From Sordariomycetes sp. S80-01Y (Eukaryota > Ascomycota > Sordariomycetes): a stretch of DNA of 64,000 nucleotides. The stretch spans positions 992,001 to 1,056,000 of the forward strand of contig JAXQJY010000029.1 in assembly GCA_037042185.1 (NCBI GenBank), given 5' to 3'. Positions 31,849 to 50,862 of this stretch are shown in pieces. The notes beneath the pieces are model-generated. The model saw only the letters and a list, made by a program, of their open reading frames with translations. It searched no databases and was not told the DNA's origin. Position 1 is the first letter of the stretch. Every line of letters begins with the position of its first letter. The position numbers were made by a program, and so were the translations under genes.

Positions 31849-33304
31849 ATGGCAGCATCCACCACCTTCAGAGTCGTTGTGGTGGGCGGTGGTCCCGTAG
31901 GCCTTACAGCAGCCCACGCCTTTTCCCGCGCTGGGATCCCTTTCACCCTGCTCGAACGTCGCGAGAGCACCATAATAGATGCTGGCTCCAACCTCGTTCT
32001 TCTACCAGTCGGCATGCGAGCTCTTGGACAGCTTGGGTTGCTTGCGGACCTGGACAGGGTCAGCTCGGCGCTCCATGACATTAGACGAATCGACCATGAC
32101 GGAAAGAAAATGGGGAACTTGAAGTACTTTGAGTACAGCGAAGAGCAGTGAGTCCTTTACTTGGAACTCCGTATGAGCAATTAGCTAACGCAGCTGTAGG
32201 TTCGGCGTCTTGCCGAGAGTCTTCAGCCGTCATGACCTAACGAAGGTCCTTTACGAAACCCTTCCCCAATCCGCGAAAGACTCCATCCTCGTCGACAAGA
32301 AGGTTTCGGATATCAAGACTACACCTGAAGGTGTGAGCGTCTCCTGCTCAGACGGTACTTCTTATCCGGGGACTATTGTTGTCGGAGCAGACGGCGCTCA
32401 CAGCATGGTCCGCTCACGCATGCGGGACCTCGCCATCGAGGCCGACTACCCCGAGATCAACGAAGAACAACCATTCCTCACCACCTACCGCTGTATCTGG
32501 ATTCGGTTTCCGACAAACGCCTCGCCTCTCCTACACGAGGGTCTGACGTCCGAAACACACGGACCTGGCGCGGCTACGCAGCTGTTCGCCGGTGAAGAGA
32601 CAGGAGTGACTGGTGTATATGAGCGTTTACCCGCCCCGACTCGGGACAGGATTCGATATACCAAGGCGGATGAAAAAGATCTCATAAGGGAGTGGGGCCA
32701 TCTGCCACTGCTCAAAGGGGATGGAAAAGTACCCGATTTCACCCTGGCAGATGCCTATTGTACCAAAGTCTCATCTGGCCTCGTTTCCCTGGAAGAAGGC
32801 GTCGTCGACCACTGGTCTTTCGACTCCCACATCGTCCTCACCGGCGATTCAGCACATAAGGTAAGCAACCTCTCCATCTCTGGCGTTATTGCGGCTAAAC
32901 AGGATTCTCAGTATACACCTTCCACAGGCGGCGGCTGTAACAACGGCATCATTGATGTCGTGTCCCTCGCCAACGAGCTCCACAAGATCACCTGCTCTTC
33001 CCTGCAACCCAACCGTGGACAGATTCGTGAAGCATTCAGAGCGTACCAGGCGACACGATCTGCGACAGTGGCGGCGCTGTGCAAGGAGTCTGGCGATGTG
33101 ACCAACATGGCGACCTGGGGTACAGGAGTGCACAAGTTCCTTGACAAGTACATCGTGGGCCATGAGGCTGTGCAGAAGTGGTTGGTCAAAAAGGCGGCGG
33201 GTAGCGTGGCTAACACGCCGCGTTTCGATTTCGTGGTTGCGGATGAGAAGTTCAAGGGGAGCGTGCCTTGGCAGAAGCCAATGCCTACTGTTGTGAAGGC
33301 CTAA
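31849..33304 (+). CDS. Group A FAD-dependent monooxygenase
   Basis: Flavin monooxygenases of this class hydroxylate or epoxidise organic substrates using NAD(P)H and O2. Exons 31849-32147, 32200-32860 and 32912-33304 give 450 residues. The Rossmann FAD motif VVVVGGGPVGLTAAHAF lies at residues 9-25 with the acidic end ERRES, the DG motif VVGADGAHSMVRS follows in the middle, and GDSAHKYTPSTGGGCNNG is the second FAD-binding GD motif. The C-terminus has hydrophobic helices but no clear membrane anchor. Intron 2 is 51 nt without stops, so an unspliced message would insert 17 residues right inside the GD motif. The fold is like that of enzymes in fungal secondary-metabolite clusters, and an MFS exporter lies downstream. 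The substrate is unknown. Confidence 0.88.
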
Positions 33305-34302: not shown

Positions 34303-35793
34303 TCAAAGCCTGAGCTTCTCATTCTTTCTCATCTTCCCTCCAAATTTGTATATCAGCGCCGGGATAGGAACCATGGCTAAAGAGATGAGACCCAAGACGG
34401 AGTTTCCCCAGCCAACACCCAGCCTCTCATACATTGCCGGTCCAGCCAGAGGGAGGAACGCGGCAACTATACTCCTCATCACAGAAAAGGCAGCAAGGGC
34501 ACTAGCGGCATAGCGAGAGTACCCATCAACAACGTAGAGCTGAGTAGGGAGCCATATGCCCTCAAAGCCTATCCCAAAAAGAGCAAGTCCTAAGATCGGC
34601 ACAGCCCAGTGGACAGCTTGGTCGCTACTCCAGCCGTACCAGAAGAACGAGATCGGAAGGAGAGCGGCAAAGTAAATGCAGAAAGGAAGCCGCATCTCGG
34701 CCTCGTAAACGCCCCCATTTGCAGCAGTCATATGACGGATTGTCTTATTGGAAAGGAGGGAGAAGGCTAAAAGGCCTACGGTGTATCCGAAAAGAAGTGC
34801 CAGGTAGACGATGCCCGAGATGCCCGCTGACCAATTGTAACTGCCGCGAAAAACAATAGGGATTGTGTTGAAAAGTAAGTATAGGCATCCGTAGACGAAA
34901 GAAACATATAGGGACACTCCGAAGATGATTGTCGAGCTGAACAGCAACTTGAGCGGTCGAACAAGCCCAGACAGGATGATGTCGGTGCTGCTGACAGCCA
35001 TTTCTGCCGCATCTGCGTAACAGCTACACAGGTCCGGCCTATTGAGGGCCTTGGCCAATCTTCTCGTCTTCTGCTGAATAAGTACCTCGTGGTGAGTTTC
35101 GGGATAGACAAACACCATGGCGACCAGAAGCGCCGAAGCAGGAATGAGCGTAATCCAATTAAGCCATCGCCAACCGATCGACTCAGCCACGAAACCGCCG
35201 ATTAGCGGCGCCAACGAGGGTCCTAGGATCGGACCTAGGATCCATATAGTCATAGCATTTCCACGCTCAGCCACGGCGAATAAATCGGCGATGACGGCTC
35301 CTCCGACGGTCTGCGAGGCAGACCCTCCAACTCCACACATGAAGCGGAAGAATATGAGGAGGTCAATCGAGGGGGACAGCGCGCATGCAACAAGGAAGAG
35401 GCAAAAGACTAGATTAGAGCCCATCATGACAACCCTACGGCCGTAGATCTCCGAGAGGGGTGATAGAACGAGAGGGCCGACGGCGTACCCAAGGAGAAAG
35501 ATGCTCACAGGCATGGCGCTTTTTGTAATATCAGGGACGCCAAAGTCTTCTGCAATGTATCCGATGGCGGGTGCAATGATTGACGACGCAAACGGCGTTA
35601 TGAAGGCTAGAGCAGAGAGGAGGGCGGTAATGAGCCATTTGAGAGTAGGAGTGAAGTTTTGGGGGTACTTGGGGTCGTCTTCGCCCTCCCAGCCAACAAC
35701 GCCGTTTTCGAGGTCCATGAGGGACTGGTGCAGGCCAGGATTGTCGACGTTGCGCCTGACGGAACCGTCATCGGTACTTGAGCGTACGTGCAT
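34303..35793 (-). CDS. MFS transporter, DHA1-type drug/metabolite:H+ antiporter
   Basis: An intron-free ORF of 496 residues with 12 hydrophobic segments after a hydrophilic N-terminus ending in WEGEDDPKYPQNFT, a sequence characteristic of fungal DHA1 exporters. Motif A is seen as GPLVLSPLSEIYGRRVV after TM2, motif C-like sequence as GPILGPSLAPLIGGFVAE in TM5, and WRWLNWITLIPASA follows. A central cytosolic loop separates the two halves. Likely at the plasma membrane, exporting toxic compounds or metabolites. Its position beside a monooxygenase and a polytopic membrane protein fits an accessory metabolite set, though DHA1 genes are also common singly. Confidence 0.92.
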   Translation of the reverse strand: MHVRSSTDDGSVRRNVDNPGLHQSLMDLENGVVGWEGEDDPKYPQNFTPTLKWLITALLSALAFITPFASSIIAPAIGYIAEDFGVPDITKSAMPVSIFLLGYAVGPLVLSPLSEIYGRRVVMMGSNLVFCLFLVACALSPSIDLLIFFRFMCGVGGSASQTVGGAVIADLFAVAERGNAMTIWILGPILGPSLAPLIGGFVAESIGWRWLNWITLIPASALLVAMVFVYPETHHEVLIQQKTRRLAKALNRPDLCSCYADAAEMAVSSTDIILSGLVRPLKLLFSSTIIFGVSLYVSFVYGCLYLLFNTIPIVFRGSYNWSAGISGIVYLALLFGYTVGLLAFSLLSNKTIRHMTAANGGVYEAEMRLPFCIYFAALLPISFFWYGWSSDQAVHWAVPILGLALFGIGFEGIWLPTQLYVVDGYSRYAASALAAFSVMRSIVAAFLPLAGPAMYERLGVGWGNSVLGLISLAMVPIPALIYKFGGKMRKNEKLRL

Positions 35794-36610
35794 CTCAACG
35801 CCTTCAGTTAGGCTGACGACTCTAACAAGCTAGATACAATTAGTAAGAGGCTCTCTTCAAGGGGAGTTTTAACCGACATCTTGGGCCATCTGGAACGATA
35901 CACACTAAGGTGAAGATTTCCTTGATCTTCTGGAGTAGGTATTTTGGGGATTTTGAGAGATATCAAAAGCTGCGTTAGCCGAAGTCTGCGGGATGCGCAC
36001 GCAACAGACTATCTGTTGTAAATTCCATTTTGCTGACTTACAGTCGCCGCCCCACGCTGCAAGATCGCTTGCCTTTGACTAACAAGGCCCAGAAATTGAC
36101 GTCCAAGGGCGCGCAAGTTGGCGTGCCGTGACACGTTCGGTGGGTACCCTGGCGGAGACGGTGCAATACCTTATGTGATGATCGGGTCTGTGCTAGCTAT
36201 AGGGTAGGTAGGAAATGTTGATGGTTTATTGTTCGTAGTCATTATATAGTAGGGAAGACAAGGTCATAAGTCCTTGTATAGAGGGTATCACGATGACATG
36301 AAAAATGATGGGATACATGGGAATATAGGGATTCCTTCGCAGCAGACTTGGAAGTCAAGATAAACAGTGCAAATGGTTTTCCCGGCCAAAAGAGTCTTAA
36401 TTGAGCTAAGCTTGTGTTCTCCACGAGGTGTAAGTGTGGGTGGGTCAGATTGCTCCCTTCCATGACAAGGTGGCGCGATTTCGTTTTCGCCCCTGAGTGA
36501 CAGCAACCCTCTCTACATCCCAAGCAAAGATTCAACATCGTTTACTTTGCATACCTCCATGTATGCCATGCTCACTTGCCGTTAAACAAGAAACTCACAC
36601 GCCCCAAGCC
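35794..36610. other. Divergent upstream region of the MFS and homeobox/C2H2 genes
   Basis: Holds both promoters. The homeobox gene's frame stays open upstream to 36497, with an ATG at 36563 as an alternative start. No other gene seen. Confidence 0.45.
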
Positions 36611-39270
36611 ATGACAGAATACCATCTGGGCAGCAATATGGAAGGGCTTCCTTCCGCCACCGAGTTCGCCCAGGATCTCGACTATGACCTCGACCTCCAG
36701 GAGGACGATTTCTTTAACTGGATGCAGGAGCAAGCGGAGGACATTGATGCTACCTGGACCACTACAGATCTATTTCTGCCAGCCTCTCCCTCAGAGACCC
36801 GCGGTCTCCAAGCCTCAGCCACCGATGTAGTTGGTGCGTCCAGTACGAGCACCACACCCATGGGCCAATTACAAAATCCGCCAGCCATTGTGCCGCCAAA
36901 ACTTGGTCGTCGCTTTTCTACTCGGGTGGCAAAGATACTGGGGCACTGGTTCGCAGTCCATCAACAACATCCCTATGCCACCGCTGAAGACCTCGAGATG
37001 CTTCAGGACCAAACGGGTCTCAGCCGGCAGCAAGTAACCAACTGGCTCGTAAACGCCAGAAGGCGCTCTAAGCCGCCTTCTTCCCGGCTTCAAACCACAT
37101 ATATCCGTGATGCTACTCAATCGACATCAACCGGACCTAACACCATCAAGATCCCCCGCCGACCCCCGACGCCTATGCCATGTGAAGAAATGAGCCCCCT
37201 CCAGCGCTGGCAACACTCACCACCCGAATACGAACCCGCTACTGTCGCCAGCATCTCTCGTGCCGTGGCCGCCTCGCCTAAACTTGGGCCCTTTTCGCCC
37301 TTATCCGGCAGATCTTCAGGTAACGCCTCATCAGTCAGTAGCACAGGCACCTCCCATTCAAGCCGCGGGTCTGCGCATTATATCTCGGCCTATTCGGACA
37401 GCTCCGGAAGCTCGATCCCCAGCCTGGCGCGACATGCTGGTCGGAGAAGACGGCGAATGGCGGCCAAGCGACAAGGTTACTCCAGGCCAAGTCTGTTCCA
37501 CACGTACCACACTTACCAGTGTACATTTTGTCCAGAGACATTCAAAACAAAGCATAACTGGACTCGGCATGAAAAGTCACTGCACCTCTCGCTCGAGAGA
37601 TGGGTTTGCTCTCCAAACGGGGCCACTGCCATGCACCCGGAGCAAGGCATATCGTGTATCTACTGCGGACAGGCCGACCCGAACGAGCCGCACCTGAATG
37701 CGCATAATTATGATTCATGCATAGAACGTTCGATTGAGGAGCGTACTTTCTATCGGAAGGACCACCTTCACCAGCACTTGAAGTTGGTACATGGTACCAA
37801 GTACATGGAGTGGCCGATGGGCTCATGGAAAGCCGACAACGCCGAGATCAGATCTCGGTGCGGCTTCTGTGGAGAGGCTCTATCGTCCTGGGCAACACGG
37901 GTCGACCATCTCGCCGACCACTTTAAGAATGAAAGCACAATGGCGGATTGGAAGGGCGATTGGGGATTTGACCATGACGTGAATGAAATGATCGAGAATG
38001 CCATACCACCTTGTGAGTAGCTGTTTCTGATATGACAGTTCTCACAACTAACCGATAGATCTCATTCATTTCGAGCAAACCTCGCCACTTCCCTTCTCTG
38101 TCACGCAAGGGCCGGCCGGCACATCCTCTAGCGCATATGAGCTCATCAAGCTAGAGCTCGAGTATTATATGTACGGCTACCTCGACGCACATGGGCGTTT
38201 GCCTTCAGATCGCGAACTCCAGCGCGAGGGATGTTCCATTATTTTTGGTGCAGAAGTCGCCTCTGGCCATCCTGTCCCGCCAGCACCGTCATGGCTTCGA
38301 GACATCTTCACCAGTTCAACCGAGATTGTTCAACAGGCTCGGTTGTGTCCCATGGAGCAGGTCGCCAAGTCACGCATGAGCCAACTCAAAATCAATGGCA
38401 AAAGTGACATTTTTGAAGGTTGCGAGCTAGAGTCTCGACTATGTCGACTAGCTGCGTTTCAAAACATGATAGGCCTTCCGATGACAGACTTTGAGTTGCA
38501 GAGAGAGGCGGCTAATCTACTTGACCGAATCGAATCTGACTCGCCCAACTCGTCTCAACTTTTCACCGGATTCTTGACGAGGCTCGTTTGGATGTCAAAC
38601 ACGTGGCTTGCCGCCTTGCGTGATCGAGGACGACAATTCCCAGCAGAGAGCATAGCAGACGAGAAAGGTTCTCGGCCAAACTTGGCCACCGTTCATTTAC
38701 CCAACAGGCCGGCCAATTCTGAGCACGATCTTGGGCAGCTACAAGGGGGGATCGGAACCCCTGTGCCATCTGCGAAGGCGTCATATGTACCTTTCTCACC
38801 GCTGCGGAGGCCAAACCACGGCAAGGGCCTCGGCGACGCCTCAAATACTCATCGTGCGAGGCCGCTCCCTACAAATCAGAACTCTTTTCATGGTAGTACT
38901 CCTTTCAGTTGGGCGCTCTTCAACAACGATAGCAACAGCTACAGGCGTCTTGCGAGAGGTCTGTCACGATTTGTGATGACCACCATGTCGTCTAACAACC
39001 CTAGCAGTCATGTACCAACTGATGAGGAGCTGAAATATCAGGCACGTTGGATTTGGTATGGCGAGTGAGTACAAACATCATTTTCTTCGATCACTTGAAA
39101 TGCAGCCATTACTGTTCTTTCTATTATTTCGCCCGTATCACTATCGCTAACAGTGTCTTCATAGCGATGACCCATGGAACCAAACTCCTGCTGACAATGC
39201 CGAATGGCTCAATGGCTTTAAACGTGATTGTGGCATCATCAACGATGATGGGCGGGAAGTTGAGAGATAG
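36611..39270 (+). CDS. TALE (KN) homeobox plus C2H2 zinc-finger transcription factor
   Basis: Exons 36611-38012, 38059-39064 and 39165-39270 join in frame to 837 residues. After an acidic N-terminus (DYDLDLQEDDFFNWMQEQ), a TALE-type homeodomain covers about residues 95-155. It shows the three-residue-extended loop (HQQHPYATAEDLEMLQ) and the recognition helix QVTNWLVNARRRSK. A Ser/Pro-rich stretch follows, then zinc-finger sequence at about 301-325 (CTFCPETFKTKHNWTRHEKSLH). Further Cys/His clusters follow: CIYCGQ...H...H, KDHLHQHLKLVHG, CGFCGEALSSWATRVDHLADH. The C-terminal 350 residues have a helical domain (YELIKLELEYYMYGYLDAHG) and end NGFKRDCGIINDDGREVER. This homeobox-finger fusion is a known fungal class of DNA-binding regulator; targets are unknown. 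An upstream ATG at 36563 would add 16 residues. Confidence 0.88.
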
Positions 39271-44883: not shown

Positions 44884-46041
44884 TCATAGCCTCTTGGTCA
44901 CGATGTCTTTTACTCTGTCCAGGTCCAAAGCTTCGACTTTCCTCCCCTTGTGCCCAATCATAGTCTCGGCCATTGTCAAGCAATTCAAGATGGCCTCCTC
45001 CGTAGCCTCCGCCACCGCCTCAAAGGCTCCCACAATCGTCGCATTATCACACATGTCCACACCCATGGGCGCCGGGGTGTACGGCGTCGTTGTCTTCTCG
45101 CTGCCGTTCATGCTCAGCTCCTGGAAAGGGATCTTGTTAGCCGTGCTGAAGGCGAGGAAGATGTCTCCCGATGAGTTGGCGCCATATCCCCCGACCCGAC
45201 CGAGACCGATGGTGGCACGCTTAGCCAGCCGTTGAAGCTGGATCGGCAACATGGGGATGTCGGTCGCGATAACGATAATAATTGATCCGTCCTTGCGGGC
45301 TTTGTCGGCGTCCCTGTCCTCGGCAGTGGCGTCTTGGTCCTTCATGATACGACCCACAGGCACGCCACCCACGGTGAGATTCTCCGGAGATCCGTAGTTT
45401 GCTTGGGCGAGAACCCCGACAGTGTACATCTTGGAGTTGCCGTCTGAATCGAAACCCGCAAGGATTCGGCTCGAAGATCCCGTCCCGCCCTTGAATCGAT
45501 GGCAGATCATGCCTGTCCCGCCCCCGGTATTGCCCTCTGGTACCGCGTCGCCAGTCGCGCTCTGTATGCCGGTGATGATATCCTGAGGCTTGATGGCGAA
45601 GACGCTGTTATCATTCAGAAACCCGTCGAATGTTTCTGCCACGCAAGGGAAAATGAAGAGATCCATCTCGCCCTCATCGTCCGTGCAGTACTTGTAGCAG
45701 TATTCCAGTATGCCACGATATGCATCCCCTACCGCGCCCGTGGTCGTCAGCACCACCGGGCTGGTGAGCAATCCTGTCTCGTTGATCCAGTGTGCCCCAG
45801 TCATCTCACCGCAGCCGTTGAAGCTGAAGATGCCCGCGAAAGAGGAGAAGGAGGTCCAGTCCGCGCGGGGGAGGATAGTGGTGACCCCAGTGTTCACAGA
45901 CCCAGTCGGCTGGATGGACTGAGTGTGGACAAGAACCCCGGGAACATCGGTCAGGGAGTTCTGCACTCCAGGTGTATATTTCCCTAATGGGAGGTTGGGG
46001 ATGAGCTCCCGAATACGCTGGCGCGGCGTTGGAGAGCCCAT
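44884..46041 (-). CDS. P1-family peptidase (DmpA / L-aminopeptidase-type, N-terminal nucleophile)
   Basis: A single-exon ORF of 385 residues. The family (MEROPS S58) activates itself by cutting before a catalytic Ser and then acts as an aminopeptidase or amidase. The N-terminus has the typical PGVQNSLTDVPGVLVHTQSI and NTGVTTILPR. The middle shows AGIFSFNGCGEMTGAHWI, GAVGDAYRG, and GNTGGGTGMICHRFKGGTGSSS. The nucleophile region GGYGANSSGDIFLAFST is near residue 290. No signal peptide is visible, so it is probably cytosolic. The next two minus-strand genes include a small secreted repeat precursor. A link is not shown by anything beyond proximity. Confidence 0.92.
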   Translation of the reverse strand: MGSPTPRQRIRELIPNLPLGKYTPGVQNSLTDVPGVLVHTQSIQPTGSVNTGVTTILPRADWTSFSSFAGIFSFNGCGEMTGAHWINETGLLTSPVVLTTTGAVGDAYRGILEYCYKYCTDDEGEMDLFIFPCVAETFDGFLNDNSVFAIKPQDIITGIQSATGDAVPEGNTGGGTGMICHRFKGGTGSSSRILAGFDSDGNSKMYTVGVLAQANYGSPENLTVGGVPVGRIMKDQDATAEDRDADKARKDGSIIIVIATDIPMLPIQLQRLAKRATIGLGRVGGYGANSSGDIFLAFSTANKIPFQELSMNGSEKTTTPYTPAPMGVDMCDNATIVGAFEAVAEATEEAILNCLTMAETMIGHKGRKVEALDLDRVKDIVTKRL

Positions 46042-46770
46042 AATGTATACAATCTGGGGTGCTGTCAGGCGACTAGGGAGTTAATATGTGACTGATGCTG
46101 TGGGTTGAGGAGGATGGCTGACGGTCTACTTTATACCTATGAATATTCGCAGACTCCGGGCTTCTCTCGTTGCTAGTTTCCAATAAGGAAGGTTGTCTAC
46201 GTTGACGTTGACTCAGTCGGCCACGAAGCTTACACGGGATGTCGGCTCTCGGCTTCGGTTTCGGCGTTGATCATCAACAATACCTCTGCTACGCCCGTGG
46301 TTGGGTCTTTGCTGCCAGTATTAGATACGGGTCTTTTATAACAGGAAAAAATGGCGAGGAAAGACATTTTTTACTGAAATAAAATGGTCATAAAAAAACC
46401 CGCCCAAGTGAGAACGAGAGGAGTCCTACAAGCGTCACGTCTGCTCGTCCTCACTAACCCGGCGACATAGGAAATGGATCACCCAGCATGATTCTCTTCC
46501 GCAGATTTTCTGGTTTTTCTAGTGTTTTTGGTTTTTCTTTTCTGTAAAATTGTCTATTGTTATCAACCATCGAAGAGCTTCGAAGGAAGTCGCCGTATTC
46601 AAAATCTTCGCTCGCCGTCCGCCCAAGTACATGCCCAAAAGCGATTCGTCCCCACGATGCCAAATTCTCCAAAACAATCATATACTTAGGCTTTTAGTTC
46701 ACCGTAAGTCTGCCTTCGCCTAAAAAAGGCACTTGCACAACTGTTCCACCTCGTCATTCTCGTTGGTGTG
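46042..46770. other. Intergenic region, no gene seen
   Basis: Promoter of the P1 peptidase and 3' flank of the four-TM gene. A short minus-strand ORF at 46454-46681 lies in the probable 3' UTR and looks non-coding. Confidence 0.45.
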
Positions 46771-48895: not shown

Positions 48896-49348
48896 TTACC
48901 AGATGCACTCATCCGGGTTCTCGTCACAGAAGGCCTGTGCCTCTCGCTTGGTGATGCACTGGTCGGGGAAGTCCTGGCAAAACTGCTGCGGATCTCTCTT
49001 CCACGTGCATTGGTCCGGGTTCTCGTCGCAGAAGGTCTGAGCCTCCCGCTTCCACGTGCACTGGTCAGGGTTCTCTTGGCAGAATGTCTGTGCCTCTCTC
49101 GTCCAAATGCACTGATCGGGGTTCTCATCGCAGAAGGCCTGAGCCTCTCGCTTGGTAATGCACAGATCCGGATGGTCCTGGCAGAACTGTTGAGGGCTTC
49201 TTTGGGCAATGGGGAGATCTTCCTCAACCGGCAAGGTGATTTCTCCATCCTCAATCATATCTGGTGGAGGGACAGCCGCCGGGGCGCCAAGGGCTCGAGG
49301 AGCGATGCTCATGATAGCGAGGGCAGTGGAGAGCTTGATGAAAACCAT
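48896..49348 (-). CDS. Secreted Kex2-processed repeat-peptide precursor (alpha-pheromone-like or RiPP-type)
   Basis: A 150-residue protein with a signal peptide (VFIKLSTALAIMSIAPRALG, cut probably near residue 21), an acidic pro-region to residue 50, and six tandem 17-residue units. Four units end in KR and one in TR; the last ends in the stop. After each basic site comes EA, SP or DP, which are substrates for Ste13-type dipeptidyl aminopeptidase. The remaining cores are 13 residues, for example QTFCDENPDQCTW, always with Cys-x6-Cys. This layout is that of yeast alpha-factor and ascomycete PPG precursors, whose mature peptides also have Cys-x6-Cys and Trp. Here, however, the Gly-containing turn of the usual consensus is replaced by acidic ENPD or similar. 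It could therefore be a divergent pheromone or another Kex2-processed (KEP/RiPP) peptide. No UstY-type (DUF3328) oxidase is visible nearby. Confidence 0.87.
   Translation of the reverse strand: MVFIKLSTALAIMSIAPRALGAPAAVPPPDMIEDGEITLPVEEDLPIAQRSPQQFCQDHPDLCITKREAQAFCDENPDQCIWTREAQTFCQENPDQCTWKREAQTFCDENPDQCTWKRDPQQFCQDFPDQCITKREAQAFCDENPDECIW
48899..49198 (-). repeat. Six tandem 51-bp repeat units in the peptide precursor
   Basis: Units on the minus strand run 49198-49148, 49147-49097, 49096-49046, 49045-48995, 48994-48944 and 48943-48899 (the last one lacks the final KR). Spacing is exactly 51 bp. Every unit keeps two Cys codons and an FC...PD..C pattern. Units 1 and 5 are one subtype (start SP/DP-QQ, end CIT); units 2, 3, 4 and 6 are another (start EAQ, end C-I/T-W). 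Confidence 0.93.
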
Positions 49349-50862
49349 GTTGCCGACTTTCGTAGTTGTGATTTTGAGGGACTAAGATAAAAGAGACAAC
49401 AGGTGTTTTTACAAATTGGAGAGAGGAACGTGGGAAATCGTCAGGAGACCTGCTCGTTGACTGTAGTGTTTTGTTTTGAGATGGTACGCAAAGCCGTAAT
49501 TCGAGTGCTCCCATGTGTCCTTTATACATATTTAGGATGCCTCATATACTATTATGACGACAGAACGTTGCCCGAGATCTGAAGGCTGTGGCAACGCTCC
49601 AAGACAATCACTTCCTTGGAGTACGGGGCCAAGTCGCTCAAGTCGTAAGCCAAATATCCGAGAACGGTCAGATTCGCACCACAGGCTGCGGTTTTGATGG
49701 CGGTGCAGTTTCAGGATCTAAGTTAGTATTAAGCTTAATGCAAAGTTCGGACTCCGATCCGGAGTGCGTCATCATTCGGAGGTAGTCTGGGGGAGGATCC
49801 TACTTCAAGTCAGGGGTCGAGGGGCGATCCCGTGAGGTGTCGGACTCAAGTGCTCGCCTTGGGCTGCTTGAAAAGAGGCCCTTAATGCTCATTAATAATA
49901 TGAAGTAACTCAGAGGTATGGAATCGGGCACGTTTCATTGAAGCCACTGGTTGTGGTCGAACTCGATCGACCAAAATTGTTGACATATCGCCGTCAACCG
50001 TCAGGAATGGCACTCGCGCCTTAGTCTGGCAGTAGTGGACAATAGCATTGACCATGCTCTGAATAGGGAATCTTTATTGAGTGGTGTCCATTGTCAGAAT
50101 CACTAGCTACACATGACAATGAATCAGAGCTGTGGAGTTGTGGGTAGAGTATCCCGGAGTTGTTTGAGTGCAACTATAACGGAGTGCCCAACAATACTAA
50201 AAGGGCCGGTGCAGAATCTGCAAACCCATGGGGCAAATCTCTGACATATAATTGCGAGACTTCGAAAGTTCGCAAGCTTTGATGAGTCTTTCCACTCATT
50301 TGGTTGAGGCTGTGATAACTATCCGCCCTGTGGGAGTGACAGTTTGATAGGGATACATCGACAAGCCAAGTCGGCGCCATGTACCCTCCGACACTGCTGA
50401 TTAGATGATTCGGAAGTAGTCTGGTGCACGGAGAATTTGTGTTGATAGCGATGAGTACAGGTCAAAACATTGACTAAGAGATTCTGTATTGCTGGCTGTG
50501 ATGTGTGCAAGTTCTCTCCATTGACGCCGTTTTTGCTCCTTAGTGACAGAGACGGTGGTCTTCTCGGTGCCGTTACCTGGTCCTGTTTAAATTGATACAG
50601 TCAGATACCGGGAATTATCATTTCGTTTGAGAAAAACGCCATCAAGCAATCTGAGTTCAGCCCGCCTACCAGCGTCGCAGCAGACTTCTGGGCGCTGGTA
50701 CCTCGTGCTCCTCAGCCCGAACATTCGAAGGTTAAATCCAAACATATGGCAAACGTTGCTTCAGAACAATTCATCTATAGGTTTCAATATATAAGATATT
50801 TTTCGTCTTTTAGAAGTCCCCGAAGCGCGCTCTCTTATACAATACGATTTTGACAAGCACCC
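49349..50862. other. Gene-poor stretch, no gene seen
   Basis: 1.5 kb with many stops in all frames. It contains the promoters of the divergent repeat-peptide and 2EXR genes. I see no tRNA, no mobile-element ends and no credible exon. Confidence 0.45.

Follow-up and report, generated by a model that had tools for sequence, protein, structure and literature searches.

A secreted-type repeat precursor with an alpha-pheromone-like maturation plan and an acidic Cys-x6-Cys core, separate from the canonical alpha-pheromone gene of a Sordariomycete

Sordariomycetes sp. S80-01Y carries a gene for a secreted-type repeat precursor, located in a 64,000-nt window (the whole stretch of DNA that was analysed), whose six units follow the layout of ascomycete alpha-pheromone precursors around a different, acidic core. 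We favour, with restrained confidence, the reading that it is a KEP with the alpha-pheromone maturation plan, most likely giving rise to a secreted self-signal apart from the canonical mating alpha-pheromone, which is encoded elsewhere in the same genome. As regards its class, the precursor is best read as an addition to the known, very diverse KEPs, with a Ste13 signature and a different core.

The precursor gene and its coding constraint

The precursor gene occupies 48896..49348 on the minus strand, with its ATG at 49348 and its TAA at 48896-48898, and encodes 150 aa plus stop in a frame that is complete without any intron; it was delimited from the ORF listing, the repeats, a codon test and comparison with a relative, P0002. 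By eye, residues 1-21 (49286..49348, minus strand) form a signal-peptide-like N-terminus, probably cut after ALG, followed by a pro-region of residues 22-50 (49199..49285, minus strand), which was recognised by comparison with P0002 and has TLPVEEDLPIAQR as its C-terminal end. A TATAAA located by string search at 49521..49526 on the same strand, 178 bases upstream of the ATG, is a possible core promoter. The remainder is a tandem array of six units that keep strictly to a 17-residue spacing, with TRF periods of 51 and 102 bp.

An open frame is weak evidence for a gene here, because three long frames overlap in the array: stop-to-stop frames of 161 and 148 codons are open on the gene strand and one of 170 codons on the opposite strand. 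Of the 15 codons compared between the six units, 14 vary at position 3, seven at position 1 and six at position 2, a third-position excess with a Fisher p of 0.0013 that serves as a guide only, since the units share ancestry and the pairs are not independent. Pooled pN/pS between units is 0.33 in the gene frame. Of the five other frames, four give 1.13-2.49, and the remaining one, frame 1 of the opposite strand, gives 0.37 but is interrupted by stops in three of the six units. The other frames open across the array were rejected on this codon test (pN/pS and stops), and a plus-strand reading of 48896..49348 is not the gene. For pairs of units, dS runs from 0.97 to 2.50 and is not computable in six cases of 15, so the array is old. 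Codon variation between the units, together with the one relative, supports a real, old and constrained gene. No NCBIfam profile matched the precursor with E values allowed up to 1, and Rfam gave 0 matches in the 64,000-nt window at gathering score.

Units, basic sites and expected products

All unit boundaries lie on the minus strand and are those used in the codon test. Unit 1, SP-QQFCQDHPDLCIT-KR (49148..49198), is preceded by QR, and is followed by unit 2, EA-QAFCDENPDQCIW-TR (49097..49147), whose terminal TR is not dibasic. Units 3 and 4 read EA-QTFCQENPDQCTW-KR (49046..49096) and EA-QTFCDENPDQCTW-KR (48995..49045), unit 5 reads DP-QQFCQDFPDQCIT-KR (48944..48994), and unit 6, EA-QAFCDENPDECIW (48899..48943), ends at the stop codon after 15 residues, without a basic site at its end. 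The units fall into an XP type (units 1 and 5), SP/DP-QQFCQD[H/F]PD[L/Q]CIT, and an EA type (units 2, 3, 4 and 6), EA-Q[A/T]FC[D/Q]ENPD[Q/E]C[I/T]W, with the core consensus Q-x-F-C-x6-C-x-[T/W]. An XA/XP dipeptide opens every unit and Cys-x6-Cys is present in every core (6/6 each), and in none of the six is there a GQ/PG turn dipeptide, [N/H/F]PD being found in place of it. Trp occurs in four of the six units, and Tyr in 0/6 cores. The core pI is 4.05-4.20 throughout (6/6), and the net charge is about -2 to -4 compared with -0.3 for the canonical peptide. Predicted turn scores of the best tetrapeptides, 1.29-1.38, are similar to the canonical value of 1.37. An AlphaFold model of the whole precursor, made from a two-row alignment, is too weak for use (mean pLDDT 47.4, pTM 0.21); at this low confidence it places short helices across the units instead of a turn and gives no support for a loop.

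The sites preceding units 1-6 are, in order, QR, KR, TR, KR, KR and KR. In a yeast-derived Kex2 matrix, Q and T at P2 score 0 (PMC2515848, Table 1), so that unit 1 may remain fused to the pro-region and units 2 and 3 may exit as one 30-residue piece; evidence for processing with other P2 residues is mentioned in the same paper (PMC2515848). The P1' residue is D or E in five of the six units, and these two residues are described as over-represented at P1' of cut Kex2 substrates (PMC2515848). The TR lies at 49097-49102 and the QR at 49199-49204. Where the pro-region meets unit 1, P0002 likewise has QR, so that this site may be conserved and cut more slowly or used in a different way. Trimming by a basic-specific carboxypeptidase would leave unit 2 with an additional Thr, and clean 13-residue products are expected from the other five units.

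An earlier note on this DNA had described much of this anatomy correctly, namely the signal-peptide-like start (by eye here), the pro-region, the Kex2-type sites, the XA/XP dipeptides, the N-terminal Gln, the C-x6-C, and units that begin with EA, SP or DP after mostly KR sites (four KR, one QR and one TR). Its 'six exact 17-residue units' hold in number and register but are of two types rather than identical, with a shorter sixth of 15 residues; its uniform 13-residue peptide is expected from all units except the second; and the Trp that it likened to that of alpha-pheromones is missing from two units of the six.

A single relative

P0002, a protein of 126 aa from a 525-base ENA record, is 42% identical to the precursor (E 4.4e-25; single query, 172 candidates). 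An alignment query with 432 candidates returned the same one protein, and a longer joined query gave no relative among 2819 candidates. P0002 retains much of the N-terminus and the pro-region motif (two copies), with TLPVEEDLPLVQR at the position of TLPVEEDLPIAQR, and contains three units, DP-RQFCIDHPGLCIT, SP-QQLCTDFPDQCIT and VP-QQFCDNYPDLCIT, all of the XP/CIT type. The XP dipeptide and Cys-x6-Cys are present in 3/3 of these units, and PG in one of the three.

Conservation as described here is that between two sequences, the precursor and P0002. Among their nine units, both cysteines with their spacing and a Pro at the fourth loop position are found in all nine, and the leading Gln in eight. 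Each of the nine dipeptides opens with one of S, E, D and V but ends in Ala or Pro, the position that Ste13 specificity would hold constant. No relative was found in viral contigs (88 pattern stretches) or in bacterial/archaeal genomes (109 pattern stretches), results that say little on distribution, because both collections lie outside the fungi. No paper in the literature searched contains any of the six peptide strings in exact form.

Canonical pheromone, receptors and processing enzymes in the same genome

The genome comprises 30.87 Mb in 16 contigs and is recognisable as fungal from its exocyst, PEX11, STE2 and MAT alpha-box genes. The precursor gene, on contig C12, is single-copy at the sensitivity used. 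A relaxed protein search with residues 1-67 (E up to 10) returned only this gene, and the DNA pattern for FC-x3-P-[D/G/N/S]-x-C (third-codon set GRY) gave 10 matches, the gene's own six units and four singles, compared with nine in the reversed control; on these two results, a gene family in this genome was rejected. For one of the singles, on C14, the stretch is absent as that peptide from the four listed ORFs of at least 40 aa.

Searched for as DNA, the canonical core WC-x3-GQ-x-C gave 16 matches, 12 of them within 1.1 kb on C15 and four scattered, compared with two in the reversed control. On C15 there is a canonical alpha-pheromone gene, a 433-aa open frame with 12 WCERPGQ[S/P]C[W/F] units. 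BLAST of our precursor against this canonical precursor gave weak, mainly repeat-driven pieces (best E 2e-04 in one comparison). The canonical precursor (433-aa ORF, positions 727-2028 of its locus, minus strand) also has a Cys-x6-Cys stretch of its own, ICKQFNLPCYHG, at residues 29-40 in the pro-region, before the first KR, which could represent one more peptide or a degenerate one.

One STE2 locus was found (two adjoining matches, C9), one STE3 locus (C8) and one MAT alpha-box locus, the last on C10, another contig than that of the precursor gene. There is one genome match to the Kex2 P-domain (P_proprotein) and there are two to the DPP-IV family (DPPIV_N), at C3:701726-702814 and C9:1988487-1989623. 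With an E cut-off of 0.01, UstYa (DUF3328) has three genome matches; they lie on C2 and C15, none on C12.

The Pfam scan of the window covered 21 of its 97 stop-to-stop frames with 130 codons or more; weakly conserved neighbours may be missed in it, and several frames gave no match. The neighbours named by Pfam include Sec3 (exocyst), an S58 peptidase, an iron alcohol dehydrogenase, the complex I 51-kDa subunit, PEX11 and NPC1, and a dynactin-5-like neighbour has a match below the cut-off. The complex I frame has its best match in PDB 7zm7 (719 bits, the next 630 bits), which we take to be from Chaetomium thermophilum; taken with the WC...CW pheromone, this would point to a sordariomycete. The S58 (DmpA-type) peptidase, at 44887-46080 on the minus strand, lies about 2.8 kb from the precursor gene. 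Three more named neighbours are 11-17 kb from the precursor gene. The homeobox protein, 36497-38017 on the plus strand, matches KN homeobox and, below the cut-off, a C2H2 zinc finger, and the monooxygenase-type FAD-binding frame (32189-33301) and the MFS transporter (34306-35829) are 13-17 kb off. Neither a mating-locus marker nor a UstYa cluster was found among the Pfam-named neighbours (21 of 97 frames).

Relation to known precursors

KEPs are defined by a signal peptide and Kex2-separated repeats (PMC6339444, PMC7329392), and the precursor resembles them (Le Marquer 2019, Umemura 2020) in having six repeats, where at least three are needed, and four KR sites, and in falling into the published 9-24 length class; by eye, its N-terminus looks like a signal peptide. 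Of the motifs given in full in the main text of PMC6339444, which do not include motif 1, none corresponds to its core. KEPs with a Ste13 signature and no known function have already been described (PMC6339444, PMC7329392), so that the 'new class' of Kex2-processed peptide suggested in the earlier note was too strong a term.

Alpha-pheromone precursors of the Ppg1, Ccg-4 and MF2-1 type share with the precursor its secreted-type layout, repeats of 9-14 residues, XA/XP dipeptides, KR sites, the Cys-x6-Cys and an aromatic residue next to the first Cys. Unlike these, the precursor lacks GQ or PG and has [N/H/F]PD instead, its peptides are acidic, with 13 residues, Q-x-F-C and Trp in four of six, and it is separate from the canonical gene of its genome, the precursor of which is the one with which homology was compared. 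Basidiomycete Ste13-signature KEPs, such as the -AADW peptides of Pleurotus and QYKAPSW of Coprinopsis cinerea, also follow the alpha-pheromone plan, and some have an N-terminal Gln and a C-terminal Trp, in a phylum whose own mating pheromones are of another type. The mushroom peptides have been detected, with pyro-Q forms when expressed in Pichia (PMC9769878). They differ from ours in belonging to another phylum, and neither cysteine nor disulfide is mentioned in PMC9769878.

Proposed maturation and role

The anatomy of the precursor, its coding constraint, the Kex2- and DPP-IV-family genes and the separate canonical pheromone gene are features of the DNA itself; from these we infer a route to a secreted signal. 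The precursor would enter the secretory pathway and be cut by Kex2 after KR and, less surely, after QR and TR. A Kex1-type carboxypeptidase would then trim the C-terminal basic residues, and a Ste13-type dipeptidyl aminopeptidase would take off SP, EA or DP. This would release about six acidic peptides of 13-14 residues and of two related types, in which the exposed N-terminal Gln may cyclise to pyroglutamate and one disulfide would close the C-x6-C loop over [N/H/F]PD. The peptides would most likely act as a secreted self-signal read by a receptor. The signalling role is proposed by analogy, and a toxin, an effector or a surface peptide could share the same precursor plan.

A reading outside mating is favoured because a canonical 12-unit pheromone gene lies elsewhere in the genome and one STE2 locus was found. 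It accords with the proposal by Le Marquer and colleagues that Ste13-signature KEPs are hormone candidates outside mating (PMC6339444). A more specific version, a second peptide-hormone channel that reuses the export and maturation of the alpha-pheromone for an acidic, disulfide-closed message in EA/Trp and XP/Ile-Thr variants, and that acts on a receptor other than Ste2, is tentative and, in our view, rather doubtful. In Fusarium, Ste2 also mediates roles of the alpha-pheromone outside mating (PMC10057649), which counts against taking a separate receptor as given.

Alternative readings

It is unlikely, though to be taken seriously, that the precursor yields a second mating alpha-pheromone, divergent in sequence, with Ste2 as its receptor too, perhaps at another affinity or stage. 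Such a pheromone would account for the common maturation plan and Cys-x6-Cys spacing, the aromatic residue before the first Cys in 6/6 units, the Trp near the end in four of the six, the similar best turn score and, on a side-by-side reading, an E-x-P-[G/D]-Q that WCERPGQSCW has in common with the three ENPDQ units (2-4), offset by one position. Duplicated alpha-pheromone genes in Berkeleyomyces and cores without a central Gly in Meredithiella (PMC13037118) keep this reading alive. Against it stand the canonical 12-unit gene, the finding of only one STE2 locus in the genome, the more negative charge of the cores, and the MAT alpha-box match on another contig. Moreover, the vast majority of Leotiomycete repeats carry a GQ or PG (PMC10569646); since no unit of the precursor does, and BLAST homology to the genome's own precursor is weak and mainly repeat-driven, we do not place the precursor among the mating pheromones. 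The earlier note had considered a divergent mating pheromone and had named a second, canonical gene as the check to make; such a gene was found, with 12 units on C15, and the proposal is weakened accordingly. The basic sites and XA/XP dipeptides, whose loss in homologues the note had named as a refutation, are found again and again in register within the array and also in P0002.

Somewhat less probable again is a peptide acting on other organisms as an effector, toxin or antimicrobial. Small secreted Cys peptides often act outward, which counts for this reading, whereas typical antimicrobial peptides are cationic, unlike the acidic cores here (pI 4.05-4.20 in all six). Pathogenic species are a frequent source of conserved KEP peptides, and KEPs include some toxins, but Ste13 signatures are absent from Rep1 and from the precursors of the toxic cyclic peptides and the epichloecyclins (PMC6339444).

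It is improbable that the precursor stays uncleaved and serves, with its 12 cysteines, as a surface or structural repeat protein. The regular array and a Pfam match to a Cys-periodic surface antigen would fit such a protein, but the match is under the cut-off (19.9 bits vs 21.2), the processing sites recur as just described, and no confident fold was predicted (mean pLDDT 47.4, a weak argument from two aligned sequences).

The precursor of a cyclic, UstYa-modified RiPP of the dikaritin type (ustiloxin, phomopsin) is the least credible reading, since a secreted-type precursor with Kex2-separated repeats, and an FAD-binding monooxygenase-type frame and MFS transporter 13-17 kb away, are set against the absence of Tyr from all six cores, the presence of Ste13-type dipeptides and UstYa matches that lie on C2 and C15; with no such match on contig C12, a dikaritin cluster was rejected.

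Implications

Repeat precursors with Ste13 signatures in ascomycetes are generally taken for mating pheromones (PMC6339444, PMC9769878). In the genome described here, a canonical alpha-pheromone gene occurs together with a second, alpha-like precursor that is under purifying selection and has a different core, a warning that architecture alone is insufficient for the pheromone label. The question of non-mating peptide hormones in fungi is thereby opened to a direct test that needs one receptor and a pair of short synthetic peptides. If true, the reading as a second channel would mean that Ste13-type peptide hormones exist in ascomycetes besides the mating pheromone.
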